Positions 378 to 45,281 of a stretch of 45,281 nucleotides of DNA are shown here, piece after piece. The notes under the pieces are model-generated. The model was not told the DNA's origin. It worked only from the letters and a program-made list of their open reading frames with translations, and did no database searches. Source of the DNA: Arcicella sp. (lineage in GTDB: Bacteria > Bacteroidota > Bacteroidia > Cytophagales > Spirosomataceae). The position numbers and the translations under genes are program-made. The stretch spans positions 1 through 45,281 of the forward strand of contig JALONS010000011.1 of assembly GCA_025454855.1 (NCBI GenBank), in the 5' to 3' direction. Position 1 is the first letter of the stretch, and each line of letters begins with the position of its first letter.

Positions 378-1760
378 TTAAACCAAGTCGTCAATCGTCA
401 TCCCCAACTTATGAGCCAGCGGTAGAAAATCCATTTTAATTTTAGCAAATTCTGTTGGATACTGCTGGCTCATGTAATCTAAACTATACGCTTGAAAAGT
501 AGCTCCTTCTGAGAAGTTTTGCAAGAAATCTTTTTTTGAATTCTTATCGCCTTTAAAGCTATTCAATGCCAATTCCGCTAAAAATGTTGGTTTATCAGAC
601 ACCACATCAGCTTGTAACTGTTTCATGATTTTTTTCATAATTTGCCCATTCGTAGTAAAAATTTGATTTACAAAATCTATTCTTTTCTGAAAATAGGTCT
701 TCCTTAAATCATCTTTTAGACGGTCTATTGCCACGATTTGCTTTTCAACTGCTTGTAAATCAGCTTGTTGTTTTTTCTTTTTTTGGAGTGCCTGTTTTTT
801 TACTTCTCCAGAGTCAATAATATTCGGCACTGCGACCATCTTTTGAAGATATTTTCCCATATCTTTCACCACTCCCCTACCGTATTCCTTTATGCTGTAT
901 AAAACACCGTCTTTAATTTGTTGGTAGGAGTATTTTTTGAACCAAGAAAGCACCACTTTTTCCCCTACAAATTCTTTAACTAATACCGTAATTTCCTCAA
1001 TTTGTTCATGATTCAAAGAATCGTTTTGTACATCATTATTCTTCGAGTTTTTATAGATAAAGAATTTTAAGCGAGTCACCTTTTTTCCAACTTTAATCTC
1101 CTCAAAATCAAAATAAAGTTCTGAGTTCTTGATTAATTCAGTTCTTGCCTGATTAACAACTTTGAGTTTAAAATCAAAGTAATTTTTATATCTATCTGTT
1201 AAACCAAATTTCTCTTTCAACTCTTCAACTTCAAACTCAAACGTTCTAAACCGTTCAAATTCTTTGCAAAATTCATAAAAACGAATGGCGTAAATACTGT
1301 CCAGATACATAATATTACGAATATCTAAAACCGTAAAATTATCTTTAATCTGAAGTAGAAAAGGTTTTATGTTTTTTGAAAATTCAAAAGTAAAATAGCC
1401 TTCTTTTTTATGATAGACAATTGAACTAAAAAAATTGGCTTCTAATCTGATTCTATCGTCTTCATAATACAAATCCTTTTTACGGAGTTTCGTTAATTCC
1501 TCTTGCAAATAGGTATGTATATTTTTAGCTTTCCCACCAACGAACTCCTGAAATTCTTTAATGGAAATACTAATTTCAGGCATTTCGTCACCACTTTGGT
1601 CAATGGAAGCAACCACTTTCAAAAATACTTTCATTTGAACCGCCGTAATATCAAACTTTGCGTTGATGATTGGATTGGTTTTAATTAATCTATAAGGATC
1701 TTTAGAAATAGCTTGTAATGCCATTTCTCTTTTTTCAGCGGGTAGTGAGGGGGTATCCAT
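378..1760 (-). CDS. repB: Plasmid replication initiator, Rep_3 (RepB/RepE-like) family
   Basis: A 460-residue protein with the usual Rep_3 order. A first winged helix spans about residues 25-150, starting near NPIINAKFDIT and including the EISISIKEF segment. A second winged helix spans about 150-245, including TVLDIRNIMYL, YAIRFYEFCKEFERF and the VEELKEKFGL helix. A long basic, probably coiled-coil tail follows from about residue 315. Family members bind iterons as monomers to open the origin and bind inverted half-sites as dimers to repress their own promoter. Both kinds of site lie directly upstream, between 1831 and 2367. The ATG at 1760 is preceded by a TAnnTTTG-type box about 35 bp away. 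The tail makes it longer than minimal Rep_3 proteins (250-350 residues). The family call is firm; the role of the tail is unknown. Confidence 0.9.
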   Translation of the reverse strand: MDTPSLPAEKREMALQAISKDPYRLIKTNPIINAKFDITAVQMKVFLKVVASIDQSGDEMPEISISIKEFQEFVGGKAKNIHTYLQEELTKLRKKDLYYEDDRIRLEANFFSSIVYHKKEGYFTFEFSKNIKPFLLQIKDNFTVLDIRNIMYLDSIYAIRFYEFCKEFERFRTFEFEVEELKEKFGLTDRYKNYFDFKLKVVNQARTELIKNSELYFDFEEIKVGKKVTRLKFFIYKNSKNNDVQNDSLNHEQIEEITVLVKEFVGEKVVLSWFKKYSYQQIKDGVLYSIKEYGRGVVKDMGKYLQKMVAVPNIIDSGEVKKQALQKKKKQQADLQAVEKQIVAIDRLKDDLRKTYFQKRIDFVNQIFTTNGQIMKKIMKQLQADVVSDKPTFLAELALNSFKGDKNSKKDFLQNFSEGATFQAYSLDYMSQQYPTEFAKIKMDFLPLAHKLGMTIDDLV

Positions 1761-1830: not shown

Positions 1831-1860
1831 AGACGACTTTATTTTTACGGAGTCGTTTTA
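1831..1860. promoter_or_regulatory. Inverted half-iterons between rep and the iteron array (putative Rep operator)
   Basis: The left part reads GACGACTTTA, the reverse complement of the iteron core TAAAAGTCGTC/T. The right part reads GAGTCGTTTTA in iteron orientation. Such a facing pair of iteron halves beside the rep promoter is the standard target of Rep dimers in Rep_3 plasmids. The role is inferred from that analogy. Confidence 0.5.
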
Positions 1861-1862
1861 AA

Positions 1863-1967
1863 CCCTATAAAAGTCGTTTTTAAACCCTATAAAAGTCGTT
1901 TTTAAACCCTATAAAAGTCGTTTTAAACCCTATAAAAGTCGTTTTAAACCCTATAAAAGTCGTTTTT
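1863..1967 (+). repeat. Five tandem iterons
   Basis: The unit CCCTATAAAAGTCGTTTT starts at 1863, 1885, 1907, 1928 and 1949. The spacing is 22, 22, 21 and 21 bp, so the copies fall on one face of the helix at two turns each. The only differences are one extra T in some spacers. This matches Rep-binding iterons. Confidence 0.92.
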
Positions 1968-2158
1968 AAGCGTACAGTAAATTGAAAATCAATTAGTTAC
2001 GACTCACGAAAGATAGAAAGAAAGAAAAGAGAAAAGAGTAACAAACAAGAAATCTTTATTACTAAAAATAATAGTGTTAAACTTTGGAAAGAATAATTGC
2101 TCTTCAGTAAACTTTTATACATACATTTTGATATTAAAACCATTGCAATGTTGATTGA

Positions 2159-2367
2159 CCCTATAAAAGTCGTTTTATAATTCTTTAAAACAATTTACTT
2201 TTTTGATATTGTAAAGAATCTTTTAGAAAGTGATAAAATACTCATACCCTATAAAAGTCGTTTTATAATTAAATCTCCTTTTTATTATAAAATACAACAT
2301 ACTGATTATCAGGTAGTTAATATGTGTCAGAAGGTTAGTGAATATTTACCCTATAAAAGTCGTTTTT
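2159..2367 (+). repeat. Three further dispersed iterons
   Basis: Exact copies of the same core lie at 2159-2176, 2247-2264 and 2349-2367, in the same orientation but 88 and 102 bp apart. The stretches between them are very AT-rich. They may form part of the origin or act as extra Rep-titration sites controlling copy number. Confidence 0.88.
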
Positions 2368-2443
2368 AGAATTTCATAGGATAAATCACCATAAAAATAG
2401 ATACAAATAGTACTATTTTTTATTATAATGATAAATAATTATC

Positions 2444-2451
2444 TATTTTTG
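2444..2451 (+). promoter_or_regulatory. Candidate -7 box for parA
   Basis: TATTTTTG matches TAnnTTTG. It lies downstream of the first possible start (2428) and 21 bp before the ATG at 2473, so it favours the later start. No TTTG is visible at the -33 position, only T-rich DNA. Confidence 0.4.
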
Positions 2452-2472
2452 TTTAAAAATATACAACTTGTT

Positions 2473-3417
2473 ATGTTAAATCAAGATATTGTACTTCGTT
2501 TCTTGCAGATGAAACCAGCTTTAAACCATTCTCAAATAGAGAAAGAAGCGGGATTACCTTCAAAAACACTTTATAAAGCTCAAGGAGGACTCATTAATCT
2601 CAATGAAAACCATCTTTCAAAACTTTTGCCTGTTTTGCGAGGCTATGGTTATTCAGAAGAGTTATTTAGTAAAGCGAAAGTTATTTCAGTAGTAAATCAC
2701 AAAGGAGGTGTGGGTAAAACAACATCAACCATCAACATTGGAAAGGCATTGAGTCTGATGGGAAACAGAGTTTTAATGATAGATATTGACTCGCAAGGAA
2801 ACTTGTCTCAATGTTTCGGGATTCATCGCCCTGTGAGCCAATTAATTGATGCTCTTTTGGACAAAACACCTTTACCAGTTATTGAAATTGAGCCAAAGTT
2901 GCATATTGTTCCATCCGATATTCAAATGGCTTATCGTGAGTTGGAATTGGTGAACTCAATCGGTAGTGAAAAGAGACTTTATAATAAGCTGGTGCCTTAC
3001 TTAGATAAATATGATTATATTCTTATTGATTGCCCACCATCACTTAATATTTTAACTACCTGTTCATTGGTAGCTTCTCATGAGTGTTTGATTCCAATTC
3101 AACCCGAAGCATCTGCTTATCATGGTGTTGAGAATCTTTTTAATAGGATTTTTGAAATTAGAGAACATCTTAATTATTCCTTGAAAGTGAAAGGGATTTT
3201 TTTTACAATGGTACATAAAAATCAAAGTGTTCATCGTGGAATGATTGACCATATTAAAGAAGTATATTCCCACTTTACCATTTTCGATACCCTGATTGAG
3301 GTTTCGACCACCATTAAGCAATCACAGGTTGCAAAGAAGGATTTATTTACTTATTCTGGTAAATCAGGGTCGGCAAACCAGTACATGGAATTAACAAAGG
3401 AAGTAATTAAACTTTAA
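2473..3417 (+). CDS. parA: ParA family partition ATPase
   Basis: A 314-residue protein. Residues about 5-45 look like a small helix-turn-helix (HSQIEKEAGLPSKTLYKAQGG). The deviant Walker A KGGVGKTTS lies at about 77-85, DIDSQGN (Walker A') at about 104-110, and the Walker B segment YILIDCPPS at about 182-190. ParA ATPases bind DNA non-specifically as ATP dimers and move ParB-bound plasmids. An N-terminal DNA-binding segment suggests this one may also repress its own operon, as in type Ia systems. An in-frame ATG at 2428 would add 15 residues, but the candidate promoter lies between the two starts, so I use 2473. parB follows after 11 bp. Confidence 0.92.
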   Translation: MLNQDIVLRFLQMKPALNHSQIEKEAGLPSKTLYKAQGGLINLNENHLSKLLPVLRGYGYSEELFSKAKVISVVNHKGGVGKTTSTINIGKALSLMGNRVLMIDIDSQGNLSQCFGIHRPVSQLIDALLDKTPLPVIEIEPKLHIVPSDIQMAYRELELVNSIGSEKRLYNKLVPYLDKYDYILIDCPPSLNILTTCSLVASHECLIPIQPEASAYHGVENLFNRIFEIREHLNYSLKVKGIFFTMVHKNQSVHRGMIDHIKEVYSHFTIFDTLIEVSTTIKQSQVAKKDLFTYSGKSGSANQYMELTKEVIKL

Positions 3418-16440: not shown

Positions 16441-16582
16441 TTTTTAGAAAAACGGACTTAATTACTCTTGTCGAGATTAAAATGCTGATTTACAGGTGTT
16501 TAATTTCGACAACATGGTGGCTCTTTGGGCTATTCTGGAAAGAGCACATCATAAAAACATTAAACACAATACCCTCTTGGTC

Positions 16583-30910: not shown

Positions 30911-30912
30911 TA

Positions 30913-31652: not shown

Positions 31653-31823
31653 CTAATGGAGAGAATTTTTCAAATCTTTGATAATTTCTTCAATTTTTTG
31701 GATAGATAAACCAAAAGATTTTGCTATAATTTCGGGAGCAATACCATTCTAAATCAAGCCCTTAACGTAATACAATGTTACGTTTTCAGTGGCTTCCATA
31801 CGGATGCGTTGGTCGGCTGTCAT
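31653..31823 (-). pseudogene. Rpn C-terminal module, broken copy
   Basis: 56 codons from an ATG at 31823 (MTADQRIRMEATENVTLYYVKG) to a TAG, with one in-frame stop at codon 25 (31749-31751). It aligns over its full length with residues 255-310 of the Rpn protein encoded at 32009-32947, but is diverged in its second half (IIAKSFGLSIQKIEEIIK). It is the outermost of three tandem units with starts 178 and 184 bp apart. Confidence 0.7.
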
Positions 31824-31830
31824 GGCGATA

Positions 31831-32001
31831 TTATGGATTGGAGTCTTTTATTTTTTGGATGATGTCTTGTACTTTTTTTATGGGAAGTTTGAAGGCTTTT
31901 GCTATTGTATCAGCGTTAAAACCTTCTTCTAACATACCTTTAATATGATTGAAAGTGGTAAGCTCAGTAGCTTCTATGCGGATGCGTTGATCGACTGTCA
32001 T
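31831..32001 (-). CDS. Free-standing copy of the Rpn C-terminal module (possible small antitoxin)
   Basis: 56 codons, intact from ATG 32001 (MTVDQRIRIEAT) to TAA. It is nearly identical to residues 255-310 of the neighbouring Rpn nuclease, differing mainly at ELTTFNHI for ENVTLQYI and one Val to Ala. It is predicted to form two or three helices with a short helix-turn-helix-like part (FNADTIAKAFKLPIKKVQDII). It starts 8 nt after the Rpn stop codon, on the same strand. In E. coli, Rpn genes also make a small protein from an internal start that blocks the full-length toxin; this frame could supply such a protein separately. That role is inference. Confidence 0.5.
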   Translation of the reverse strand: MTVDQRIRIEATELTTFNHIKGMLEEGFNADTIAKAFKLPIKKVQDIIQKIKDSNP

Positions 32002-32008
32002 AACGATA

Positions 32009-32947: not shown

Positions 32948-32990
32948 GAAAGGATTAATATTTTTCTAAAATTACACAAAAAATCATTAA

Positions 32991-32998
32991 TATTTTTG
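32991..32998 (+). promoter_or_regulatory. Candidate -7 box for the type IX secreted protein gene
   Basis: TATTTTTG fits TAnnTTTG and lies 17 bp before the ATG at 33016, giving a very short leader. It sits in the 68-bp gap between divergent genes. Confidence 0.35.
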
Positions 32999-33015
32999 AA
33001 CATAATAATAGTACA

Positions 33016-34941
33016 ATGCCTCACACCAAATCATATCGTTACCTTTTGATAATCCTGATGTTTTTCACGTTCAAAAATCAGGTTAGAGCCGAGCATATTT
33101 ACGGAGGTAATCTTTATATGGTTCAAACGGACAAGGATGCAGGCAAGTTTAAAATTGCCCTCAATATGTTCGTAGATTTTATCATCATGCCTTCCAGTGA
33201 AGATACTTACTTACAAAAAACACCCGTAACGATTCGGATATTTAGAAAAAGGGACAACTTGCAAATTCAAGAAATCTCAATGCCCTTCGAGGTTCTCCAA
33301 GATTTGGTTTATGATAACGCAACCTGTGCCAGAGTCCGCAACCTCAAAACTCGTGAATACCGTTATGCCAAAGAAGTAACCCTCAATTTAGATAATTTCA
33401 CCGATGCTGGGGGCTATTATATCGCTTGGGCAAAATGTTGTAGAAATTCACAAGTGGACAATATCGTTAGTCCTGGCATTTCAGGCATGACTCTCTATTT
33501 AGAATTTCCAGCCCTCAAACAAAATGGGCTTGCCATCACGTATTCATCGCCCCTCTTCAACCAACCTAACGGAGACTACATTTGCAACAAAAAGCCCTTT
33601 CAATACAATTTGAGTGCGGTTGATAAAGACACACTCAACGAATTGAGATATAGTTTGGTTACACCATATAGTAGCCACAACGCCATCACCAATGCCAGCG
33701 ATAAAGCCAAGCCAGCCCCTTATCCTCTTACGCAATGGTTGCCAGGATATTCTGCCAGTATGACCATCAAAGGCAGTAAACCCATGAGTATTGACCCCAA
33801 AACTGGGCTTATTAGTCTTATAGCAGACGAAGTAGGTTTATTTGTATTTTCCGTTCAATGTGAGCAATACCGTAATGGACAAAGAATTGGCTTAGTCAGA
33901 CACGATTTCCAGCTACCTGTAGTAGATTGTAGTAACAATACCCCATCAGCTGGTAAAATTACTCATGAAGGCATAGCTGTAACAGAAGTAAGTATCTGCC
34001 CAGGCGAAGCCGTTAATTTGGATGTAAGTGCCACGGGAGGAACATTCAACTTTCAATGGCAAAAAGACGGCGATAATATAGCAGGAGCCAACACTCCCAC
34101 CTACAAAGTAACTCAATTAGGAGATTATACGGTAGTAAAAAGTTTTAAGACGGTCTGTGCCAACGATACAACTTCTCAGGTAGTGAAAGTAAAACAAGTA
34201 GTTTTGGTAAAAGTAAAATCTCCCACCGCTGCACTTTGTGAAGGAGATTCTGTACAGATAGAGGCTATTCCCCAAAGAAGCACCGTAGCTTTGGTATGGA
34301 ACTTAGCAGGTACAACATTGAGCAATAAAGCCAAATATCACGCCAAGAAAGCAGGTAAATATTACATTTTAGGTAGTATCACGAGTCCCAATTGTGAAAG
34401 TAAAGACAGCGTAGAGATTACCCAAAGAGCGTCTCCCAAACTTACGCTTGATAGTAGAAACATCACACTACCGTTGGGGGAAAGCCGAACCTTAAATGTA
34501 CAGAGCGATAATGCTTCGACCACCTTTAAATGGTCGCCCCCGAAGTGGATAGACAATGTTTCTATCAATAATCCGAAGATTACACCCGAAGACCATATCG
34601 TATATAGGGTAATAGCAAGTACGCCCAATCTTTGCCCCATGAAAGATTCTGTGGTAGTGTTTGTCACCAAAAGCATCCTGATTCCGAATATGTTTAGCCC
34701 CAACGGCGACAACATAAACGACACTTGGGAGATTTTTGGGATTCAGAATTTCAGAGATTGCGAAGTAAGTATTTTCAACCGTTGGGGCGAAATTATTTAT
34801 TACTCAAAAGGTTACACAAACCCTTGGGACGGTAAATACAAAGACCAATTAGTATCAGCAGGACAGTATGTTTATGAAATCCGAGGAGCTTCACAACGAG
34901 AGGGGTTTGTGTATGTGGGGGTGTTGGGTGTAGGGTATTAA
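33016..34941 (+). CDS. Type IX secreted surface protein with gliding motility-associated C-terminal domain
   Basis: A 641-residue protein with a signal peptide (YRYLLIILMFFTFKNQVRA). The N-terminal domain begins EHIYGGNLYM, typical of large Bacteroidota surface proteins, and includes a Cys-Cys pair (WAKCCRNSQVDN). About three Ig-like segments follow between 310 and 550 (VSICPGEAVNLDVSATGG; LCEGDSVQIEA). The final about 85 residues are the type B C-terminal sorting domain: IPNMFSPNGDNINDTWEI, FNRWGEIIY, NPWDGKY and GQYVYEI. That domain directs export through the type IX system and surface attachment. No type IX machinery is encoded here, so the host must supply it. It could display or assist the neighbouring surface proteins, but no direct link is visible. 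Confidence 0.88.
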   Translation: MPHTKSYRYLLIILMFFTFKNQVRAEHIYGGNLYMVQTDKDAGKFKIALNMFVDFIIMPSSEDTYLQKTPVTIRIFRKRDNLQIQEISMPFEVLQDLVYDNATCARVRNLKTREYRYAKEVTLNLDNFTDAGGYYIAWAKCCRNSQVDNIVSPGISGMTLYLEFPALKQNGLAITYSSPLFNQPNGDYICNKKPFQYNLSAVDKDTLNELRYSLVTPYSSHNAITNASDKAKPAPYPLTQWLPGYSASMTIKGSKPMSIDPKTGLISLIADEVGLFVFSVQCEQYRNGQRIGLVRHDFQLPVVDCSNNTPSAGKITHEGIAVTEVSICPGEAVNLDVSATGGTFNFQWQKDGDNIAGANTPTYKVTQLGDYTVVKSFKTVCANDTTSQVVKVKQVVLVKVKSPTAALCEGDSVQIEAIPQRSTVALVWNLAGTTLSNKAKYHAKKAGKYYILGSITSPNCESKDSVEITQRASPKLTLDSRNITLPLGESRTLNVQSDNASTTFKWSPPKWIDNVSINNPKITPEDHIVYRVIASTPNLCPMKDSVVVFVTKSILIPNMFSPNGDNINDTWEIFGIQNFRDCEVSIFNRWGEIIYYSKGYTNPWDGKYKDQLVSAGQYVYEIRGASQREGFVYVGVLGVGY

Positions 34942-35039
34942 AATTATGTAATTAGGTTACAACTAAAGAAAAGTTGAAATTTCTCACGACTGAGGTGGTT
35001 CAAAAAACGGCACACTTTTTTGCATAAAAAGTGCAAAAA

Positions 35040-35366
35040 ATGGAAGTGAAGAAAACCAAGAAATCATACACACGTTATGAGGATGATTTCAAAGAAGAAC
35101 TCCTGCGGATGCTAAATTCAGGTAAGAGCGTTGATGAAATATCGAAGACCTCTGGGATTTCACGAAATGTTCTTTATACTTGGAAAAGCAAATTTCAAAT
35201 GAAGAGTAAAACCAAGACTTCTGAGGAGCAAACGAGCTATCATCCGAGGCTCATTTCAGAGAACGAACAACTCAAAAAAGAGAATGCTCACTTACAGTCT
35301 GAACGGGACATTCTAAAAAAAGCTCGGCAGGCGCTCCTGTTGGTTCTCTTCAGCACGTCCAGCTAA
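35040..35366 (+). CDS. IS3-family transposase OrfA
   Basis: 108 residues from the ATG at 35040 (a GTG lies three codons upstream). It has the IS3 OrfA helix-turn-helix (YEDDFKEELLRML, then SVDEISKTSGISRNVLYTWKSKF) and a leucine-zipper-like tail (LISENEQLKKENAHLQSERDILKK). The A7G run at 35315-35322 is a typical -1 slippage site. The -1 frame continues as an OrfB start (LRDIYELILSFSKDYSV), so a fusion transposase was once made. The last residues after the run are frame-0 tail. Confidence 0.75.
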   Translation: MEVKKTKKSYTRYEDDFKEELLRMLNSGKSVDEISKTSGISRNVLYTWKSKFQMKSKTKTSEEQTSYHPRLISENEQLKKENAHLQSERDILKKARQALLLVLFSTSS

Positions 35367-36237
35367 GAGACATTTACGAATTGATACTATCATTTTCAAA
35401 GGACTATTCGGTTGATTTTTTTATGTTCGTTATTTGACGTGAGTAGAACGGCATTTTACCGCTACAAACGTGGAGAGAGTTATAATGCAGACCAAAAATA
35501 TCATCGCCCTAAACACGAAGTGCGGTTAGAGTTTTTAAGAAATTTTAAACGCTATGGTAGTCGTAGAATAAAGGCTTCTTTGTTTAATATCTCGCCAAAA
35601 AGTAGCTGAATTGATGCGAGAAGAGTGTTGACGAGCCATTCAGCCACCAAAATTTGTTCCCAGAACGACTGATAGTAAACATGGTAAAAGGGTTTGTGAA
35701 AATTTATTATTGAATCAGCCTAAACCTACAAAACCCAATCAAGTACGGGTGTCAGACATCACTAATATACCCCTAAAGAATGGTCAATGGGCGTACCTGT
35801 GTACATGGACTGGACGTCCCCGATGGACTTATTCACACGAGTAATTGTAGGCTGGTCAGTGGATGATAATATGCAAGAATCATTTGTCAGAGAACCCTTA
35901 GAGAAGGCACTTTTGAAGAGAAAACACAGCCAAGATTATAATCGTACATTATGATAGAGGTGGGCAGTATTTATCCGATAAAATGAAAGAATTAGTCCAC
36001 ATATTTAAACTCAAACAGAGCATGAGCCGAGCTGATGACCCATATGATAATACCTTTGCAGAATCGTTGTGGAGTAGGTTGAAAACTGAGTTAGAAATGC
36101 CGAAAGGAGGTTACTAAAACTTATCAGTATTGAGGAGCATTTTGTTTGAATTTATTGAGAGTTATTATAACAGACAACGACTACATTCAAGTTTAAATTA
36201 CGAAGTCCCGAGTCATTTTGAGAAAAAAGTGGTTTGA
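35321..36237 (+). pseudogene. IS3-family transposase OrfB, broken
   Basis: Recognisable pieces in changing frames: VSRTAFYRYKRG and KRYGSRRIKASLF (35440-35585), QPKPTKPNQVRVSDIT (about 35720), KNGQWAYLCTW (about 35775), HYDRGGQYLSDKMKELV (about 35950) and FAESLWSRLKTELEMPKGGY ending in a stop (about 36055-36115). The C-terminal YYNRQRLHSSLNYEVP follows. The DDE residues of the integrase core can be traced, but at least three frameshifts and several stops separate them. It cannot encode an active enzyme. Confidence 0.8.
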
Positions 36238-36971
36238 AAAGAATAGGTAAAAATAGAAATGTTAAAAAACAAAACTCGCAAAAAGTGTAAACCAAAAATA
36301 GACCACCCCAGAGTTTCATCATTCAGAGCGGTTTTGAGGTGTAATTATCTTACAAATTTTTCAAAATATTATTAGCGAATGGTTCCATATCCAAAACGGT
36401 CATGAAAGTGTCTAAAAACTGCTTGTTACTAAGTTAGTACTAAGTTGTTACTACTTTATTACTAAGATGTTATTAACCTATTTCAAAAACGCTGTTTCGA
36501 GCGATTTTAAGCGAAAATATTGAGATTTTTAGCAGTTTCAAAAGGTTTCAAAAGGCAAGCGGTGTTATTGTTATCACACTAACGGCTCTCAAGATTCGTA
36601 TTCTCAAAAAGCAACAATAGGGTCTCATCAAAAATAACAAAAAAAACTTCTGCAAGGTGTCATTTAAGAAGTCCAGAAAGGCATTTTCTTATTTTCCTCA
36701 CGATTTGGTTGGTGATTATTAGCGAAGAATAGAGTTAAACTCTGTTTAAAATCATGGATGATTTCGGGAGAGATTTATCGGGCTTTAAGGTGGTTGTTTT
36801 TATACCATTACCATTTATGTAAGACTTAATCCAAGATCAGGGGGTATTTGGCAAAATACTAAATATTATTATTCCATGAAAACACAATGTAAAAGGTTAT
36901 CAATTTTACAACTTAATAGATGGAATGACAATGGACTGACAATATTGATAAAAATAGTTTCAAAACATCTT

Positions 36972-37004
36972 GTAACGTTACGTAACGTATCTCCGTAACG
37001 TTAC
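36972..37004. repeat. Paired 10-bp palindromes GTAACGTTAC
   Basis: Perfect palindromes at 36972-36981 and 36995-37004, 23 bp apart, with a further half-site GTAACG at 36982 and GTAACGC at 37019. Two helical turns of spacing suggest binding of a dimeric protein. ParB or a serine recombinase are the obvious candidates. Confidence 0.6.
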
Positions 37005-37087
37005 AAATGGATTGGTTGTAACGCAAAGAGCTGTATTTTAAATGTATCACTTGGGTATCTTGTTAGTGATTTTTGAAAGGTATCCCT

Positions 37088-37280
37088 AATAATCAGTTAT
37101 TTATGCTCGGTAATCCTTATGGTAAGCTTATTGGTAATCCTTGATAATTAGTTATTTATGCCCGTAATCCTTATGGTAATCTTATTGGTAATCCATAATA
37201 ATTACTTAGCGATGCTTGGGTATCCAGTCGAATATCCTTGATAATCAATTACTTATGCTCGGATACCCAGTCGGGTATCC
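37088..37280 (+). repeat. Four tandem units of a TTGATAATYA...TATGCTCGG...TATCC repeat
   Basis: Units at about 37088-37140, 37141-37194, 37195-37237 and 37238-37280. Units 1 and 2 share a GTAATCCTTATGGTAA insert, and units 3 and 4 share a CCAGTCG-ATCC segment. Each begins with a variant of TTGATAATTAGTTATTTATG. A diverged inverted copy is found at about 39280-39343, beyond the recombinase genes. Confidence 0.65.
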
Positions 37281-37460
37281 AGAGGTATAACTTTGATAAG
37301 TAGTTAATTAAATTCAGTAATTCTTGAAATCCTGTTTGATAAATAATTCCTCCTAAATCTGATAACAAAATAAAATTAGATGCTTGTAATATGAGTATTT
37401 TCAGTGATAATATATTCCGACCCTATGGATATTACTCCCGCTCAATTCTTGAGCCTATTC

Positions 37461-37574
37461 CGTTTACAGATAGTCCTCTTGGGTGAATTTGCATTTACAG
37501 GGGTTAAGTGGCTGGTTTACAAACGTGTACAAACGTAAACGCCCCTGTAAACGAGACCGTTTACGAGCGTTTAC
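37461..37574. repeat. GTTTAC/GTAAAC cluster with nested hairpins
   Basis: CGTTTAC or its complement occurs at 37461, 37534, 37547, 37558 and 37568, with variants at 37493 and 37514. TTTACAGGGG (37494-37503) pairs with CCCCTGTAAA (37542-37551). GTAAACG-AGAC-CGTTTAC (37547-37564) forms an alternative stem. The cluster lies 120 bp from the 3' end of a recombinase pseudogene. Confidence 0.6.
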
Positions 37575-37694
37575 ACTAAGAAAACAGAAAAACACTCCTA
37601 TTCGTAAACACTCATTAATGAGTGATATTTTCTCATAAGCGTACCAATATTCTCATTACCATTGAATAAAAAGAGTGGGGTCATGCTAATTTTT

Positions 37695-38288
37695 TTATAC
37701 GTCCATTTCATTATTCTTTAAACGATAATTGTAAACCGTTCCGTAAGCAATTCCCAATGTTTTTGAGATTTTATTCATGGATAATCCTTCTCGTTGTAGT
37801 TCTATGATTTTTGCTTGAAGCTCCTTGGTAATCGGTGGACGGGCAATGTGTTTGCCTTGTGCTTTGGCTCTTGCCATTCCTGCTTTTACTCGCTGACTAA
37901 TCAACGAGCTTTCAAATTGTGCCAGTGATGCCATCACATGAAATATCAATTCACCCGTTGGGGTGGTAGTATCAATATTCTCCTGATAGGAAATAAAGTC
38001 AATGCCTAAAACTTTGAAATTCTTTCAGAGTATTCACCAACGCCTGAGTGGAGCGAGCAAAGCGGTCATATCGCTAAACTAACACTACATCAATTTTACG
38101 CTTCTTGGCAGCTGCCATCATCAACTTGTATTGGATTCTGTCCTCACTTGTTCCTGAAGCGTAGTCAATAAATTCTGAGACTACTTCAAAGTTTCGAACT
38201 TGGGCGTACCCTCGTAATTGGAATAATTGAGTTTCGGAGTCTTGACCTTTATCAAGCGTTGAAACCCATGTGTATAGAGGTTCTTCAT
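37695..38288 (-). pseudogene. Serine recombinase (resolvase/invertase), inactivated
   Basis: Three lesions can be read. (a) Two extra bases near the start turn what would be MKNLYTRVST (ATG at 38288) into an out-of-frame LYTWVST. (b) A TAG replaces the Trp of VLVWRYDRFARS near 38074. (c) A one-base shift near 38025 separates TQALVNTLKEF from LGIDFISYQENIDTTTPTG. After repair it is a normal small serine recombinase with catalytic Ser (in RVST), the RYDRFARS arm, FHVMASLAQFE and a C-terminal helix-turn-helix (ISKTLGIAYGTVYNY). It has a different lineage from the intact neighbour at 38350. Confidence 0.88.
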
Positions 38289-38349
38289 GCAAATCTGCGG
38301 AAAATTCACTTTTCAAACCGCAGCGGCGACCGCCAACAAGTCAGTTGAG

Positions 38350-38913
38350 TTATTTACTCTCAATACTTTTCTTGTACCTCTTTACGGACGATATGCTAAT
38401 TCCTGTGAGTTTGACAATCTCCGACACAGACATCTGTTTTTGTAATGCTACCTTCACCTTTTCATAATTAACTTGGTTAAGACCCGTTGGTCTCCCTATG
38501 TGCTTTCCCTTGGCTTTGGCTAACAATTGTCCAGCCCGAGTTTTTTCTAAAATAGTTTCTCGGTCAAATTCCGCCAAGGAGGCAAAAATGGACAATATGA
38601 GTTTTCCTGCGGGTGTGGTTGTGTCAATCCCCACATCAAGGGCTTTGAAATTTATTTTCTTTTTGGCAAAGTCATTGACTAAATTAATCAGATGGTCTCT
38701 GTTTCTTCCCAACCTAAAAAAACGTGCAACAACAACCGTATCACCCTCCCTCAAAACGGAAAGCATCTCATCTAAGGCGAGTCGCTGAGTGGTTACTCCA
38801 GAAATCTTATCCTGAAAAATTCTCTCACACCCAAATTTTTGCAAGGCTTCAATTTGCGTATCAAGATTTTGGTCGATTGTTGAAACACGAGCATATCCGA
38901 AGATTTTATTCAT
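38350..38913 (-). CDS. Serine recombinase (resolvase/invertase family)
   Basis: 187 residues from the ATG at 38913, chosen because FGYARVSTIDQNLDTQ follows at once; a start 24 bp further out adds nothing conserved. The catalytic Ser lies in YARVST. The second catalytic region reads ARFFRLGRNRDHL, in place of the more common RLDRLGR. DTTTPAGKLILSIFASLAEFDR and the long E-helix follow, then the DNA-binding domain with GKHIGRPTG and an HTH (VSEIVKLTGISISSVKRY). Such enzymes resolve plasmid multimers or invert DNA at sites usually next to the gene. Repeat-rich DNA on both sides could hold its sites. It appears intact. Confidence 0.9.
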   Translation of the reverse strand: MNKIFGYARVSTIDQNLDTQIEALQKFGCERIFQDKISGVTTQRLALDEMLSVLREGDTVVVARFFRLGRNRDHLINLVNDFAKKKINFKALDVGIDTTTPAGKLILSIFASLAEFDRETILEKTRAGQLLAKAKGKHIGRPTGLNQVNYEKVKVALQKQMSVSEIVKLTGISISSVKRYKKSIESK

Positions 38914-39279
38914 AAAGCGACCGTCGCACGGTATCAAAAAGTTAGTTTCACAAATATAAATGGTAGTTTTTTATTGAACCTACTTTTTGGACTATATTTT
39001 TAAAAGATGTAATTGAGTATTTCAATTAAAATGGATGGTTCAGTAAGTTACGACTTATTGGACGGCAAGTGCATTCTGTGTTTTTTATTCACAAGTCATT
39101 CCTAACCCAGTCAAAAAATGCTTGTGATATTCGGGCATTTGTTAGTATCTACAATTAGTAAAATAGTTTTTATAAATGTTAAATATTTCATAAATTCCTA
39201 AGTGGTGTTATTGTTATTAGCTTAGTAATTCCTAAGTGTTGTTTACAGGAGTATGGTATTTTTGAAGATAACTTACCAT

Positions 39280-39343
39280 TTAGATAACCTTCTGGATAAC
39301 CATTAAAGTAACAACCACTAAGCGATTGATTATCAAAGCTATC
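39280..39343 (-). repeat. Inverted, diverged copy of the 37088-37280 repeat family
   Basis: Read on the minus strand it contains TTGATAATCAATCGCTTAG and then GGTTATCCAGAAGGTTATC. These match TTGATAATCAATTACTTA and GGGTATCCAGAGGTATAAC of the last plus-strand unit. The two sets flank the recombinase genes in opposite orientation. Confidence 0.5.
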
Positions 39344-39701
39344 TATGAAGAATTCATTAGGACAATCAAGTATCATTTTAGATGGAGTTTTGTATTGACA
39401 AGCATATTATTCCCAAAAAATGTCAATGGAATTCTCAATGATTACGCCCCTGTTTATCAAGGGTTTGAATCTAATTGGAACAACGAACTTTTTAAGTGGC
39501 AGGTCAATATGCTTTAGCGTAATTTTGTCGTATTTGAAAAATCTTACGGAAGTCGTTATAAATTTTTGACGTTTCCTTTATTTCAACCAACTTTTCCCGA
39601 TACTTTTCTAAGTTTAATGGAATTCCCTTTTAACACCAAAACTCAATCTCAACGGGTGTCATTTATGCTTTTCTACGTCCAAAAATGTTAGCTATTTTAG
39701 C

Positions 39702-39749: not shown

Positions 39750-42098
39750 ATGAACACCGCTTCCCACAATAAAATTGTTTCCTTTATTTGGTCTATTGCT
39801 GATGATTGTCTCCGAGATGTTTACGTTCGTGGTAAATACCGTGACGTAATTTTACCCATGGTGGTTCTCCGTCGTTTAGACGCTCTACTCGAAATCTCGA
39901 AGGCTGAGGTATTGGAAGAATTAAAATTCCAGACTGAAGAAGCTGGCTTTACCGAATTAGACGATAACGGTCTCCAAGAGGCTTCTGGTTACGTTTTTTA
40001 TAATACCTCGAAGTGGACTTTACAGCTATTACATGATACCGCAACCAATAGCCAACAGTTGTTAGAATCTAATTTTAAAGAATATCTCGACGGATTCAGT
40101 ACCAATGTGAAGGAGATTATTACCAAGTTTAAACTCCGCAGTCAAATAAACCATATGGCTAACAAAGATGTTTTGCTGGCTGTTTTAGAAAAATTTACTT
40201 CTCCGTATATCAACCTAACTCCTTTTGAAAAAAATGACCCCGAAGGACGGAAACTCCCACCACTTTCTAATTTGGGAATGGGCTACGTTTTTGAAGAGTT
40301 GATACGAAAATTTAACGAAGACAATAACGAAGAAGCAGGCGAACACTTTACACCCCGTGAAGTAATTGACCTGATGACGCACGTAATTTTTGACCCTATC
40401 AAAGACAATCTTCCAGCCGTAATGACGATTTATGACCCTGCTTGTGGTTCGGGAGGGATGCTCACGGAGGCTCAAAATTTTATCAAAGACGAAGAAGGAC
40501 AAATTCAGGCAACTGGTGACGTGTATCTCTACGGAAAAGAAATCAATGACGAAACTTATGCCATTTGTAAGTCTGATATGATGATTAAGGGCAATGACCC
40601 AGCCAATATCAAAAACGGCTCTACACTGGCAACTAATGAGTTTTCGGGTATTCATTTTGACTTTATGCTTTCTAATCCTCCCTACGGTAAATCTTGGGCA
40701 AGTGAGGTAAAATATATTAAAGACGGTAATGAGGTAATTGACAAACGTTTCTTAGTAAAACTCAAAAACTATTGGGGTGAAGAAGAAGACGTGGAAGCCG
40801 TACCACGTTCATCGGATGGGCAATTACTGTTTTTGATGGAAATGGTTGATAAAATGAAGCCTGCCTACATTAGTGCAACGGGTTCTCGGATTGCGTCTGT
40901 GCATAATGGTTCGAGCCTTTTTACGGGTGATGCTGGCGGGGGCGAAAGTAATATTCGTCGATATATCATTGAAAATGATTTGCTCGAAGCCATTATTCAA
41001 TTACCTAATAACCTCTTTTATAATACGGGAATTACCACTTACATCTGGATTTTGGGCAACAATAAAAAAGCCCACCGTAAAGGGAAGGTACAGTTGATTG
41101 ATGCAGGACAATTGTATCGTAAACTCCGTAAAAATTTAGGGAATAAAAATTGTGAATTTGCCCCTGAACATATCGAACAAATTATTGATGTTTACCAAAA
41201 CCTAACCGCTGTTGAACGTTTGGGCGATGAAGGAATTGCCAGTAAAATATTTGATAATCAAGATTTTGGTTATTATAAAGTTACCATTGAGCGTCCAAAA
41301 CGCTTGAAAGCCCAATTTTCAGCGGAACGCATTGCTGATTTGCGTTTTGTGAATAACCTCCGTGAACCCATGGCTTGGGCATACCAGTCGTTTGGCGAAA
41401 GTATTTATACCGATTTACCCAAATTTGAAAAGAAAATCATGGATTGGTGCGATGCTCAGGAGTTGAATCTTTCTCGAAAATTGCAAGAAACCTTAGTCAA
41501 TCCGCTAACGTGGAAAAAGCAACAAAGTTTATTGGAAATGGCAACAGTTTTAATGGAATCCATTGGAACAGACGAATACAATGACTTTAATATTTTCAAG
41601 AAATTGGTGGATGATGAGTTGAAAGCTCGTAAAGAAAAGCTATCGGCTTCGGAGAAAAATTTAATCCTCAATGCCGTTTCTTGGTACGATGCCGCTGCCG
41701 AAAAAGTCATCAAAGGCACAAGCAAGTTTACGCCCGAAAAACTCAATCAATTATTGGAGCGTTTGGGCTGTACTGAAAGTCAATTAGCTGATTTTGGCTA
41801 TTTCTCGACCGCTAAAAAATTAGAATATCTGGAATACGAAACGGAATCTGATTTGCGGGATACTGAATATGTACCACTGAAAGAGTTGATTTATCATTAC
41901 TTCGTCAGAGAGGTAAAACCGCACGTTTCGGAGGCTTGGCTCAATCTGGAAGCCACCAAAATTGGTTATGAAATCAGTTTTAACAAGTATTTCTACCGTC
42001 ATAAACCTTTGCGTGATTTGGAGGAAGTTTCAAACGATATTTTGGCTTTGGAAAATGAAAGTGATGGCTTGATTCGGGAGATTTTAAACTTAATTTAG
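39750..42098 (+). CDS. hsdM: Type I restriction-modification methyltransferase subunit
   Basis: A 782-residue N6-adenine methyltransferase. The N-terminal HsdM helical domain (IWSIADDCLRDVYVRGKYRD) is followed by GEHFTPREVIDLM (about 195-207), motif I DPACGSGGML (Asp229 onward) and motif IV NPPYG (Asn309 onward). IASVHNGSSLFTG and RRYIIENDLLEAIIQLP then follow. It is longer than classical HsdM (about 500-550 residues) because of a 250-residue C-terminal helical extension, as seen in several Bacteroidota type I systems. It should form a modification complex with HsdS, encoded 1 kb downstream in the same operon. The next gene starts 7 bp after the stop. Confidence 0.95.
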   Translation: MNTASHNKIVSFIWSIADDCLRDVYVRGKYRDVILPMVVLRRLDALLEISKAEVLEELKFQTEEAGFTELDDNGLQEASGYVFYNTSKWTLQLLHDTATNSQQLLESNFKEYLDGFSTNVKEIITKFKLRSQINHMANKDVLLAVLEKFTSPYINLTPFEKNDPEGRKLPPLSNLGMGYVFEELIRKFNEDNNEEAGEHFTPREVIDLMTHVIFDPIKDNLPAVMTIYDPACGSGGMLTEAQNFIKDEEGQIQATGDVYLYGKEINDETYAICKSDMMIKGNDPANIKNGSTLATNEFSGIHFDFMLSNPPYGKSWASEVKYIKDGNEVIDKRFLVKLKNYWGEEEDVEAVPRSSDGQLLFLMEMVDKMKPAYISATGSRIASVHNGSSLFTGDAGGGESNIRRYIIENDLLEAIIQLPNNLFYNTGITTYIWILGNNKKAHRKGKVQLIDAGQLYRKLRKNLGNKNCEFAPEHIEQIIDVYQNLTAVERLGDEGIASKIFDNQDFGYYKVTIERPKRLKAQFSAERIADLRFVNNLREPMAWAYQSFGESIYTDLPKFEKKIMDWCDAQELNLSRKLQETLVNPLTWKKQQSLLEMATVLMESIGTDEYNDFNIFKKLVDDELKARKEKLSASEKNLILNAVSWYDAAAEKVIKGTSKFTPEKLNQLLERLGCTESQLADFGYFSTAKKLEYLEYETESDLRDTEYVPLKELIYHYFVREVKPHVSEAWLNLEATKIGYEISFNKYFYRHKPLRDLEEVSNDILALENESDGLIREILNLI

Positions 42099-42105
42099 TT
42101 AAACA

Positions 42106-43122
42106 ATGGAATTAATCAACCCCACACTTCTTAGCCAAATAAAGGCAGTTATCAAAGATGCTCAGGAAAGAGCAGTTCGGGCTGTTGACCACGAACGTAC
42201 ACTTATGTATTGGCATATCGGGAAATACATTTTTGAAGAAGAACAACAAGGAAAAGACCGTGCCGAATACGGAAAATACCTCATCAAATACCTTTCTCTG
42301 CAATTAGAACCAGAATTTGGTTCGGGTTTCGGTATTAGGCAGTTAGAACGATTTAGGCGGTTTTACAGGCTTTTCCCAATTGCGTCCGCAGTGCGGTCGC
42401 AATTGAACTGGACACAATATAAATTGCTCATCTCCGTAGATGATGCTGATAAAAGAGCCTTTTATATCGCTGAAAGCACTAAAAATCATTGGACTTCACG
42501 GCAACTTGAACGCCAAATTAATAGCCTTTTGTACGAACGTCTTTTAATGAGCAACGATAAAGAAAGTGTGTTGGCTGTGGCTCAGGGTGAAAAACAGGTT
42601 TCGGAAGTAAAGGAAATTATAAAAGACCCCATGTTTTTAGAATTCTTGGGACTTAAACGGGAAAGTAGTTATTACGAGAAAGATTTGGAACAAGCCATCA
42701 TAACGCATTTGCAGGAGTTTTTACTGGAAATGGGTAACGGATTTTCGTTTGTAGCTCGGCAAAAACGCATTTTATTGGAAGATGATGAATTTTTTGTGGA
42801 TTTAGTATTTTATAATCGTCTGTTGCAATGTTTTGTAATCATCGAAATTAAAACGCACAAATTAACCCATCAGGACGTAGGACAATTGCAGATGTACGTC
42901 AATTATTATGACCGAGTGGAACGATTAGCCCACGAAAACCCAACGATTGGCATTTTGTTGTGTACCGATAAAAATGATACCGTGGTAAAATTTAGTTTAC
43001 CCGAAAATCAAAAACAGGTAGTGGCAAGTAAATATGAATTGATTTTACCTACCGAAAAACAGTTAGTACAAGCCATTGAAACCAAATTACAAAAATTACC
43101 TAACAACCAAGATGAACAATAA
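42106..43122 (+). CDS. DUF1016/YhcG-type PD-(D/E)XK nuclease domain protein
   Basis: A 338-residue protein. The N-terminal DUF1016 helical domain (about 8-150) includes YWHIGKYIFEEEQ, GFGIRQLERFRRFY and SQLNWTQYKLLIS. The C-terminal nuclease fold (about 175-325) carries the active-site pattern Asp232 (VDLVFYN) then Glu247-x-Lys249 (VIIEIK), followed by HQDVGQLQMYVNYYD. These genes often sit inside type I restriction-modification operons, but their exact role is unsettled. Here it lies between hsdM and hsdS with tight spacing and an 11-bp overlap with hsdS. It is the only complete nuclease gene in the operon, since hsdR is missing. Confidence 0.9.
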   Translation: MELINPTLLSQIKAVIKDAQERAVRAVDHERTLMYWHIGKYIFEEEQQGKDRAEYGKYLIKYLSLQLEPEFGSGFGIRQLERFRRFYRLFPIASAVRSQLNWTQYKLLISVDDADKRAFYIAESTKNHWTSRQLERQINSLLYERLLMSNDKESVLAVAQGEKQVSEVKEIIKDPMFLEFLGLKRESSYYEKDLEQAIITHLQEFLLEMGNGFSFVARQKRILLEDDEFFVDLVFYNRLLQCFVIIEIKTHKLTHQDVGQLQMYVNYYDRVERLAHENPTIGILLCTDKNDTVVKFSLPENQKQVVASKYELILPTEKQLVQAIETKLQKLPNNQDEQ

Positions 43123-44428
43123 CCTACAAAAATATACCAACTATAAACCCTCTGGCGTAGAATGGCTGGGTGAAATTCCTGAACATTGGGAGGTGAAGAA
43201 GTTAAAATATTTATTAAATGGCAAACTAAAATATGGAGCTAATGAAAGTGGTATAGAATATGATATTTCTTTACCGAGATATGTAAGAATCACTGATTTT
43301 GGATTTAATGGAAAATTAAGTGAAACGAATAAATTATCACTTTCATGGCAACAAGGAGGAAATTATTTATTAAAAGATGGCGATATTCTCTTTGCAAGAA
43401 GTGGTGCGACAGTTGGAAAAACTTATCAATTCAAAAAATCTATGTCTATTGAGTCAAATTATTGCTATGCTGGCTATTTGATTAAGGCAGAAACAGATGA
43501 AAAAAAGATTTTGAGTGATTTTCTATATTTATACACTAATTCTGATTTTTTTAATAGATGGAAAGATTCGATTTTCATAAAAGCAACAATTGAAAATATT
43601 GGAGCAGATAAATATTCTCAATTAATTATTCCAATCCCCCCACTAACCGAACAAACCCGCATTGCTGAATTTCTTGACCGTAAAACCGCCCAAATAGACC
43701 AAGCCATTACGATAAAAGAAAAACAAATTGCCTTGTTAAAAGAACGTCGCCAAATATTGATTCATCGGGCGGTAACTCGTGGCATTAATCCAGACGTAAA
43801 ACTAAAACCCTCTGGCGTAGAATGGATTGGAGATATTCCTGAGCATTGGGAGGTGAAGAAGTTGAAGTATATTTTGATAGAAAGGAATGAAAGGTCTGTT
43901 GCAGGAGATGAACCTTTATTAATGATGAGTCAAATTCATGGATTAGTTGTAAGAAGCGATTTTCATGAAAAAGCAGAAGTAGCACAAAGTTCAGTAGGTA
44001 ATAAACTTGTTTACAAGGAGGATTTAGTTTTTAATAAGCTAAAAGCTCATTTGGGCGTTTTCTTCAAAAGTAGTATTCCACAAACTGGAATCGTCAGCCC
44101 AGATTATGCAGTATATTATTCAAACGGAAAAATTAAGGATTTAAAGTTTTTAGAAGTATTGTTTAAAAGTCCATCTTACATTAGAGAATTTATTTGTAGA
44201 GCCACAGGAATAGTTGAAGGGCTGATTAGACTCTATACAGGTGATTTATTTGATATTTCAGTACCTGTTCCTCCGAAAAGTGAACAAAGCCTAATTTTAG
44301 AGCATATCGAGAATATATCCGAAAAAATCGCCACCGCAATAACTTTAAAAGAGCAAGAAATTGAAAAATTAAAAGAATATAAAAGTACCTTAATCAATAG
44401 TGCCGTAACGGGTAAAATACGGGTTTGA
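43112..44428 (+). CDS. hsdS: Type I restriction-modification specificity subunit
   Basis: 438 residues from the ATG at 43112, which overlaps the previous stop by 11 bp; an earlier in-frame ATG at 43076 is less likely. Two target-recognition domains each open with the same block: KPSGVEWLGEIPEHWEVKKL at about residue 12 and KPSGVEWIGDIPEHWEVKKL at about 232. Each ends with a Pro-rich segment (IPPLTEQTRIAEFLDRKTAQ; VPPKSEQSLILEHIENISEK) and a long spacer helix. Both domains look complete, so a bipartite recognition sequence is expected. The 66-bp DNA repeat at the two openings (43145-43210, 43805-43870) could allow domain exchange. Confidence 0.93.
   Translation: MNNNLQKYTNYKPSGVEWLGEIPEHWEVKKLKYLLNGKLKYGANESGIEYDISLPRYVRITDFGFNGKLSETNKLSLSWQQGGNYLLKDGDILFARSGATVGKTYQFKKSMSIESNYCYAGYLIKAETDEKKILSDFLYLYTNSDFFNRWKDSIFIKATIENIGADKYSQLIIPIPPLTEQTRIAEFLDRKTAQIDQAITIKEKQIALLKERRQILIHRAVTRGINPDVKLKPSGVEWIGDIPEHWEVKKLKYILIERNERSVAGDEPLLMMSQIHGLVVRSDFHEKAEVAQSSVGNKLVYKEDLVFNKLKAHLGVFFKSSIPQTGIVSPDYAVYYSNGKIKDLKFLEVLFKSPSYIREFICRATGIVEGLIRLYTGDLFDISVPVPPKSEQSLILEHIENISEKIATAITLKEQEIEKLKEYKSTLINSAVTGKIRV
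43145..43210 (+). repeat. hsdS internal repeat, copy 1
   Basis: 66 bp encoding the opening of the first recognition domain. It is nearly identical to 43805-43870, with a handful of substitutions. Confidence 0.85.
43805..43870 (+). repeat. hsdS internal repeat, copy 2
   Basis: Opening of the second recognition domain, 660 bp after copy 1 in direct orientation. Recombination between the copies would delete one whole recognition domain in frame. Confidence 0.85.
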
Positions 44429-44452: not shown

Positions 44453-44557
44453 CTACGGAATGAATTCCGTAGATAAGAAATTGGTCGTCCCGCTGGGACT
44501 ATGTAGTAGGTCAAATGCCGTAGGCATGACCGAGGTCTCAGCAACCGATTTTAATCG
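44453..44557. repeat. Palindrome cluster upstream of the RAYT gene
   Basis: Four stems in 105 bp: CTACGGAAT-GA-ATTCCGTAG (44453-44472), GTCCC-GCT-GGGAC (44487-44499), ATGCC-GTA-GGCAT (44515-44527) and CGATT-TT-AATCG (44546-44557). The third is the inverse of the palindrome repeated downstream of the gene. These are typical REP-like sequences next to a RAYT. Confidence 0.75.
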
Positions 44558-44594
44558 ATTGAAAAATGTAACATCATTAAATCAAAAACAAATT

Positions 44595-45056
44595 ATGGCA
44601 AATACATACCATCAAATGTATGTTCAAACTGTTTTTGCGGTAAAATACAGAGAAGCAGTAATTGATAAAGCATGGAAATCAGAATTATTAGCGGTTATTG
44701 GCAATTTAATAAACGAAACAGGATGTAAAACTATCATCGTAAATGGTGTAGAAGACCACGTCCATTGTTTTTTTAAACTAAAGCCAACTTGTTGTGTTTC
44801 AGATGTGATGAAAAGTGCAAAAGCAAAGTCCTCTAAATGGCTCAATGAAAGCGGATTACTTTCACATAGATTTGAATGGCAAATTGGTTTTGGTGCGTTC
44901 ACATATAGCAAATCCCATGTCGATAAGGTTTACAAATACATTCTAAATCAGGAAGAACATCATAAAAAGCGAATCTTTAAAGAAGAGTATTTGGATATGC
45001 TCAAGAAATACGAAATAGATTACGATGAAACCTATCTATTCGAGGAATTGATTTGA
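44595..45056 (+). CDS. REP-associated tyrosine transposase (RAYT), IS200/IS605-like Y1 family
   Basis: 153 residues from the ATG at 44595 (MANTYHQMYVQTVFAVKYRE, the usual start of the family). An upstream in-frame extension runs through the palindromes and is not expected to be coding. The HUH motif is His55-Val-His57 (EDHVHCFFKL). The probable nucleophile is Tyr115 in VYKYILNQEEHHKK, with the family's Gln and His-His following. WQIGFGAFTYS is also typical. These enzymes cut and join single-stranded DNA at REP palindromes. The gene lies between hsdS and the hsdR-like remnant if the molecule is circular. Confidence 0.9.
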   Translation: MANTYHQMYVQTVFAVKYREAVIDKAWKSELLAVIGNLINETGCKTIIVNGVEDHVHCFFKLKPTCCVSDVMKSAKAKSSKWLNESGLLSHRFEWQIGFGAFTYSKSHVDKVYKYILNQEEHHKKRIFKEEYLDMLKKYEIDYDETYLFEELI

Positions 45057-45063
45057 AATTTCC

Positions 45064-45281
45064 AATTGATTAAAATTGGTTGCTAATATATCATTCATGC
45101 CTACGGCATTTGCGTAATGTGAAAAGCTCACAACCGATTAAAATAGGTTGCTAATATATCATTCATGCCTACGGCATTTGAATAATGTGAAAAGTCCCAT
45201 TGGGCTACTCACAACCGATTAAAATAGGTTGCTAATATATCGTTCATGCCTACGGCATTTGCGTAATGTGAAAAGTCCCAT
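45064..45281 (+). repeat. Three tandem REP-like units downstream of the RAYT
   Basis: Units start at about 45064, 45132 and 45213 (steps of 68 and 81 bp). Each has an AACCGATT-AAAATAGGTT-type inverted repeat, then CTAATATATC, then the palindrome ATGCC-TAC-GGCAT (45097, 45165, 45246) and TAATGTGAAAAG. The second unit adds CCCATTGGGCTA. The window ends inside the third unit. Confidence 0.85.

Follow-up and report, generated by a model that had tools for sequence, protein, structure and literature searches.

REP-like two-hairpin units around a TnpA-Y1 subclass 1.2-type transposase gene on a probable Arcicella plasmid

At the end of a contig from a draft genome of Arcicella sp., a small Y1 transposase gene is surrounded by short palindromes that lie in inverted orientation on its two sides. 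Are these palindromes the ends of an insertion sequence, independent repeats beside which the gene inserted or survived, or REP-like partners of the transposase itself? A sequence-only reading had named the locus a RAYT with tandem REP units on a plasmid. Here, we analysed the whole stretch of DNA, hereafter the window, which is 45,281 nt long and constitutes the entire contig C40 of the 474-contig draft genome G000 (84% complete), together with related genes and genomes. Our main reading, to which we assign a probability of roughly 70%, is a REPtron-like locus of TnpA-Y1 subclass 1.2 with its own bipartite, two-hairpin type of REP, residing on a probable plasmid.

The gene, tnpA-Y1 (44595..45056, + strand), encodes a 153-aa HUH transposase of subclass 1.2 type, as identified by PF01797, motifs and Foldseek. 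The PF01797 (Y1_Tnp) match, with an E of 1.5e-25, was scored on a longer frame starting at 44460, the start given in the sequence-only reading, but the conserved start is the ATG at 44595, because the alignment of relatives begins at MANTY. The gene is apparently intact, as had been proposed, and DHVH (HVH being residues 55-57), WQ (residues 95-96) and YILNQEEHH with the catalytic Tyr 115 are all present. The label RAYT did not hold: the protein passes the NCBIfam model transpos_IS200 (62.3 bits, cut-off 55), has the signature Y---Q--HH and falls far below the cut-off of REP_Tyr_transpos (22.4 bits, cut-off 80). Its nearest PDB neighbours by sequence and by fold are the IS608/ISDra2 TnpA proteins, and a Foldseek search with the predicted model (mean pLDDT 78, C-terminal helix predicted at 128-138) returned ISDra2/IS608 TnpA as best match (E 7e-9), with TnpAREP (4er8) at rank 30. 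That the locus is a class 2 RAYT or REPtron in the strict sense, to which the inverted flanking units and dispersed doublets described below would also fit, is highly improbable in view of this fold rank, the score below the REP transposase cut-off and a catalytic Y---Q--HH in place of Y---NP.

The Y---Q--HH signature was found in 113/113 TnpA sequences, comprising the window, 30 family loci, 80 named loci and 2 plasmid relatives, and in 0/4 references (three IS200 and E. coli RayT). Among the 113 sequences, 107 are distinct; six family loci duplicate named ones (L026=L057, L027=L059, L029=L065, L030=L064, L031=L072, L033=L078). In a TnpA tree of 36 rows, the IS200 references form a separate clade with a support of 100/100, and the window falls within a clade of 21 rows supported at 97/100. 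Judged by its sequence, the window TnpA is a HUH/Y1 transposase nearest to the IS200 type and carries the signature of TnpA-Y1 subclass 1.2. Quentin 2018 (PMC6006769) characterises this subclass by DH[IV]H, WQ and Y---Q--HH, a length of ~148-150 aa, low copy number and occurrence in Bacteroidetes; the paper describes its genes as generally lacking typical IS200 terminal structures and as not sharing IS properties, and its Table 1 gives REP as 'no'. The window TnpA resembles the subclass in its motifs (DHVH, WQ, Y---Q--HH), its 153 aa and its low copy number with diverged copies, and departs from it in that the subclass is listed without REPs, whereas the genes here are flanked by a defined repeat unit. 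According to the same paper, the automatic REP search demanded one of the tetranucleotides GTAG and GTGG, and short hairpins additionally needed a stem base rich in GC; REPs were probably missed because many of the units would fail these criteria.

The repeat is a bipartite unit of 47 nt, composed of a 13-nt hairpin B (5 bp and a 3-nt loop), a 14-nt spacer with a consensus near GACCNATNTTGTAR and a 20-nt hairpin A (~9 bp), and its strand is given as the direction from B to A. The window holds five units, an inverted pair before the gene and three in tandem after it. Upstream are U1 (44453..44499, - strand; B GTCCC-AGC-GGGAC, spacer GACCAATTTCTTAT, A CTACGGAATTCATTCCGTAG; 51.7 bits, E 1.8e-11) and U2 (44515..44561, + strand; B ATGCC-GTA-GGCAT, spacer GACCGAGGTCTCAG, A CAACCGATTTTAATCGATTG; 39.0 bits, E 2.8e-8), and downstream, all on the - strand, are U3 (45063..45109; 33.5 bits, E 6.5e-7), U4 (45131..45177; 43.6 bits, E 2e-9) and U5 (45212..45258, followed by the contig end; 45.0 bits, E 8.7e-10). 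The scores are those of covariance model R2, whose alignment A2 comprises 30 units from 27 named loci and 0 from the window, and which, run unfiltered and with matches admitted up to an E of 1, recovered exactly U1-U5 in the window. The sequence-only reading had reported one copy of ATGCC-GTA-GGCAT before the gene (44515-44527) and three reversed copies behind it (45097, 45165, 45246), along with matched AACCGATT-type palindromes (44542, 45063, 45131, 45212). All of these are present, and its picture of a Y1 transposase gene between REP-like units of opposite orientation (U2 against U3-U5) is borne out, but the two palindromes are halves of one 47-nt unit and not separate elements, and the upstream unit it recognised is joined by a further one with different stems at 44453-44499.

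When up to 2 mismatches are allowed, ATGCC-GTA-GGCAT has 5 matches in the window against 0.57 expected, a number reached by 0/100 shuffles; the fifth match, with 2 mismatches, lies at 23730. The AACCGATT-type palindromes have 7 matches counting both strands, and none of the shuffles had that many. The left and right flanks of the gene contain inverted repeats of 50-54 nt that are 83-86% complementary. U1 and U2 form an inverted doublet in the order A-B-15 nt-B-A, 62 nt from start to start, and the 26 units listed for the congener G005 include 11 doublets of the same order. The downstream units are spaced 68 and 81 nt apart in tandem, which may result from slippage or repeated strand transfer. 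Between U4 and U5, a degenerate GTCCC-ATT-GGGCT hairpin (45194..45206, no strand assigned), read directly from the sequence, may be the remnant of a hairpin B of U1 type. Because the contig stops at 45281 inside this repeat array, the number of downstream units is a lower bound (at least 3).

In single-stranded DNA folds, hairpin B is formed in all five units, while hairpin A is complete in U1, has an internal mismatch in U2, is weak in U3 and comprises 5 bp with a large loop in U4 and U5 (10 nt in U4). The U1 fold reaches a z of -5.2, with 0/200 shuffles as low, and the 109-nt U1-U2 pair a z of -4.0; the folds of U2-U5 are only 0.8-1.8 SD better than shuffles (U3 z -0.8). The tags at the foot of hairpin A read TTAT, TCAG and TTAG in the window and not GT[AG]G.

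The unit is enriched beside related genes. For the named relatives, which are the best 80 of 582 and whose loci were retrieved, double hairpins occur <750 nt from the gene in 70/80 loci and at 2.5-3.25 kb in 9/77. Structure-defined double hairpins number 265 in 116 kb near the genes vs 14 in 103 kb far from them, i.e. 2.28 vs 0.135 per kb, a 17-fold difference; the 265 include some B hairpins paired with a neighbouring unit's A, and the far control was handled alike. A 13-mer repeat cover >0.2 within 250 nt was found on the left in 59% (n=79) and on the right in 63% (n=78) of the loci, and in 0-4% of loci in each bin past 2 kb; cover is highest at <=250 nt from the gene and near background by ~1 kb. 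An exact-frame unit lies <750 nt from the gene in 64/80 named loci, on both sides in 30. Left-right repeats in the named relatives are more often direct (45/77) than inverted (30/77), with 1/61 of either kind in the control, and neighbouring units in the arrays are oriented -+ in 27, ++ in 23, -- in 15 and +- in 5 cases. As a sole criterion, left-right inverted repeats were set aside, since besides the window only 10/30 family loci score >=36.

The anatomy of the unit is likewise conserved. Alignment A1, the basis of model R1, contains 50 units, of which 3 come from the window and the other 47 from 40 named loci, and 98.3% of its pair cells are paired; perfect stems were the criterion by which the 47 were chosen, so these counts carry no independent weight. 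The independent evidence for the unit is its fixed spacing together with the conservation of spacer and tag. In 176/253 units with a 13-nt B, hairpin A is centred exactly 24 nt past the end of B, the runner-up distance occurring 18 times. A GTAA or GTAG tag, which was unused in selection, is found in 112/176 units of relatives, in 54 of them as GTAG. Across 156 distinct units, the spacer, which also was not part of unit selection, is conserved at G14 (97%), A19 (96%), T20 (94%), T22 (93%), T25 (90%) and A26 (89%).

For less closely related family members of subclass 1.2, proximal repeats occur in 15/19 loci vs 0/19 at 900-1500 nt, and the unit model gives weak partial matches in 3 of these loci and none in 16; as these loci have repeats that scarcely match the unit model, the type of repeat seems to follow the TnpA clade. 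Three of the distant loci (L044, L051 and L054), examined by eye, show a B-like hairpin without hairpin A. On a Persicobacter plasmid (L170), a TnpA relative of 36% identity has a two-hairpin unit on its left (R2 24.2 bits) and, by eye, an inverted similar arrangement on its right flank.

Units are also dispersed in related genomes. The genome G007 falls in the same genus as the host, and its tnpA locus is identical to that of the named record L078, Arcicella aurantiaca DSM 22214, for which reason the host is taken to be Arcicella-like. Scoring was confined to the best 150 candidates of each genome, so that counts are possibly low; at least 89 units were found in Arcicella aurantiaca (G007), at least 68 in G156, at least 29 in G005, at least 15 in G027 and at least 2 in G004, and none among the best 150 candidates in the congeners G001, G002, G003 and G006, of which G002 and G006 are <90% complete. 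In G000, the 5 units among the best 150 candidates are all inside the window, so that no unit of this host has yet been located off the plasmid contig; the missing dispersal is a weak result because the draft is 84% complete. The sequence-only reading had proposed counting the repeat elsewhere and taken an absence from related genomes as the mark of an ordinary IS200-like element; this refuting condition does not apply, as units are dispersed in congeners, although those found in the host itself are all within the window.

In the two congeners examined, the dispersed units are mostly inverted doublets. Listed neighbours <250 nt apart are inverted in 11/11 pairs in G005 (best 26 of 29 units) and 25/25 in G007 (best 76 of 89, minus 11 in the gene-side array), i.e. 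in 36/36, one of the G007 pairs overlapping. The sense of the doublets differs by congener, being A-B-B-A in G005, with 62-79 nt from start to start, and B-A-A-B in G007, and units in the array beside the G007 gene are direct neighbours. At one G007 doublet site the doublet is missing in 5 aligned congeners (G000, G001, G002, G004 and G006), and at one G005 site in 2 (G000 and G003); neither was accepted as a clean empty site, the intergenic DNA at both being too diverged to fix the insertion ends.

Several simpler markers were tried and rejected. The exact 13-nt palindrome matched 9/59 relatives' genomes and proved misleading, with 7 of the 9 having 1-2 matches that resemble coding sequence; G020 has 9 exact copies, and reading placed 8 within repeat units, from which the two-hairpin architecture was recognised. 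A fifth exact copy in G000 (C416) lies within an 899-codon open frame and is part of no unit. The hairpin-A core GGATTNAAATCC, used as a counting word, gave counts mostly <10 per strand that were often, not always, above the control. Separately, G004 and G000 lack a ~180-nt stretch that lies at ~2157-2334 of L135 (G007:C2), the gap having flush ends in both; segments of this stretch match numerous other positions in G004, where they account for most of the 38 whole-query matches, and it is another small repeat family in the genus.

These observations bear on the possibility that the locus is an ordinary IS200-type insertion sequence, with the gene mobile as a unit and the flanking palindromes as its LE and RE. 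The protein does score as IS200, and IS608 and ISDra2 TnpA, of the IS200/IS605 group, are its nearest relatives in both PDB fold and sequence. However, tnpA copies are few and diverged, with 2 matches in the 84%-complete draft G000, the second only 38% identical to that of the window and no near-identical copy found, while units number in the tens per genome and in G007 lie mostly off-gene (65/76 listed). Typical IS200 ends are single LE and RE hairpins in one orientation, in contrast to the arrays and inverted doublets here. No tnpB-sized frame is present from hsdS to the contig end, 225 nt past tnpA. Together with the description of subclass 1.2 as not sharing IS properties (Quentin 2018), these points leave the insertion-sequence account improbable. 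The second TnpA gene of G000 (L002, G000:C205) is flanked left and right by a long AGCGAGGGATTTAAATC-type hairpin, which is a different unit.

An alternative of another kind is that the units are independent repeats, such as RNA hairpins, terminators or parts of another mobile element, beside which tnpA inserts or survives; insertion sequences targeting REPs are reported (PMC1525189). Co-occurrence across genomes speaks to this. In 296 genomes of the phylum, a TnpA relative (E 1e-10) is present in 26/33 unit-positive vs 107/263 unit-negative genomes (Fisher p 5.5e-5), and of those with a TnpA of >=200 bits 9/9 are unit-positive vs 24/287 others. Among 150 family genomes, 12/12 with the closest TnpA are unit-positive vs 20/138 others, and those ranked 13th-15th (G144, G117 and G088) are unit-negative. 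The bit thresholds were picked after viewing the lists and the tests ignore shared ancestry; per genome, the best 20 (phylum set) or best 41 (family set) candidates were scored, so unit counts are possibly low. Within the top 12, G007 and G017 share seed loci of the model (L078 and L057, respectively), and unit matches at these two loci arise by construction because both supplied seeds; a third is the window's own genome. The unit model is limited to one clade, since TnpA relatives also occur in 107/263 genomes in which it finds no unit.

The independent-repeat account draws support from the 7/33 unit-positive phylum genomes without a TnpA match at E 1e-10. One genome, G027, has at least 15 units (best 150 candidates) and no TnpA match at E 1e-10, and its units are possible orphans after gene loss. 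G005 has at least 29 units, yet its better-scoring TnpA match is 52% identical and has a different local repeat. Against this account, all genomes with the closest TnpA are unit-positive, the type of repeat apparently tracks the TnpA clade (15/19 near, 0/19 far), and an Rfam scan of the window region at E up to 1 returned no family; among eight relatives, the sole Rfam match was to Flavo-1, in a single relative and well away from its gene. We regard independent repeats as unlikely, and a REPtron-like locus remains our preferred reading.

The contig itself is likely plasmid-derived, in agreement with the sequence-only reading. It encodes a Rep3-family replication initiator (378..1760, - strand; PF01051 E 5e-29), whose counterpart on an Emticicia oligotrophica plasmid of 58,952 bp shares 54% identity with it over 98%, followed by 8 iteron-like direct repeats with a CCCTATAAAAGTCGTTTT core (family D5; 1851..2372, + strand), probably the origin region as far as function can be inferred, and a ParA-type partition ATPase (2428..3417, + strand; PF13614 E 2.5e-49). 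TnpA relatives match in 10/72,556 PLSDB records, with >=80% of the query covered in 2, which weakly favours the idea that plasmid carriage is unusual, the denominator being all records and not Bacteroidota alone. The tnpA/unit locus starts 25 nt past a type I specificity gene (hsdS). Before it, hsdM, a DUF1016/PDDEXK gene and hsdS are consecutive (39750-44428), and hsdR is absent among the nine frames domain-searched. Elsewhere on the contig, frames of 473 aa and 4804 aa followed directly by one of 146 aa (15019-31353), a layout of a big repeat-rich frame and then a small one, suggest a polymorphic toxin with a possible immunity gene. A near-identity search of 30900-39700 against plasmids gave no match.

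In relation to known systems, the locus resembles the REPtrons of RAYTs (TnpAREP, class 2) in part; RAYTs and REPINs are defined in PMC2817692, PMC3116915 and PMC3733652. Common to both are a HUH/Y1 gene, inverted flanking units (U2 vs U3-U5), dispersed units with inverted doublets (REPINs) in the congeners G007 and G005, and a GTAR tag at the hairpin foot, seen in 112/176 units of relatives; different here are the class 1-like protein, the two hairpins per unit at fixed spacing, and a tag that is often GTAA and degenerate in the window. The CGTC-tagged REPs (Di Nocera et al. 2013, PMC3733652) have Bacteroidetes among their phyla and form mainly head-to-head dimers, but are set apart by their description, with no transposase, 8-9 bp stems and 4-5 nt loops. 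No description of the 47-nt unit or of REPs for subclass 1.2 was found in the openly licensed PMC main texts searched, and the unit sequence as a search word returned unrelated papers only. In the passages retrieved, PMC12306157 includes two Flavobacterium genomes in a REP-count table and mentions neither RAYT nor TnpA, and in PMC11194056 'RayT' serves as an annotation label for Chryseobacterium, with no analysis of REPs.

By analogy with IS608/ISDra2 and TnpAREP, we infer that TnpA would transpose the units. The protein would bind folded single-stranded units, e.g. on the lagging strand, and a GTAR-like tetranucleotide, located where hairpin A has its 5' foot, may act as the guide that chooses the cleavage site. 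Hairpin B, 14 nt upstream of A, is a putative further docking element. TnpA would then cut and rejoin strands, as in the strand-specific single-stranded reactions described in PMC8266576 and PMC6006769, with doublets copied or moved in trans and the tnpA gene itself seldom moving.

With this locus, a subclass described without IS features or REPs gains a candidate substrate, a 47-nt single-stranded unit of fixed spacing, and with such a concrete unit the activity of subclass 1.2 becomes directly assayable. A plausible, if tentative, extension is that subclass 1.2 as a whole is a second lineage of REP transposases, one that descends from class 1 (the IS200 side), has an origin separate from that of the class 2 RAYTs and possesses bipartite two-hairpin REPs and doublets of its own across Bacteroidota, and that plasmids like this one carry the gene and starter units to new hosts. 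If true, the IS200 lineage would be a further starting point for the domestication of Y1 transposases into REP systems, and some of the intergenic hairpins in genomes like those of Arcicella and Flavobacterium would receive a named source.
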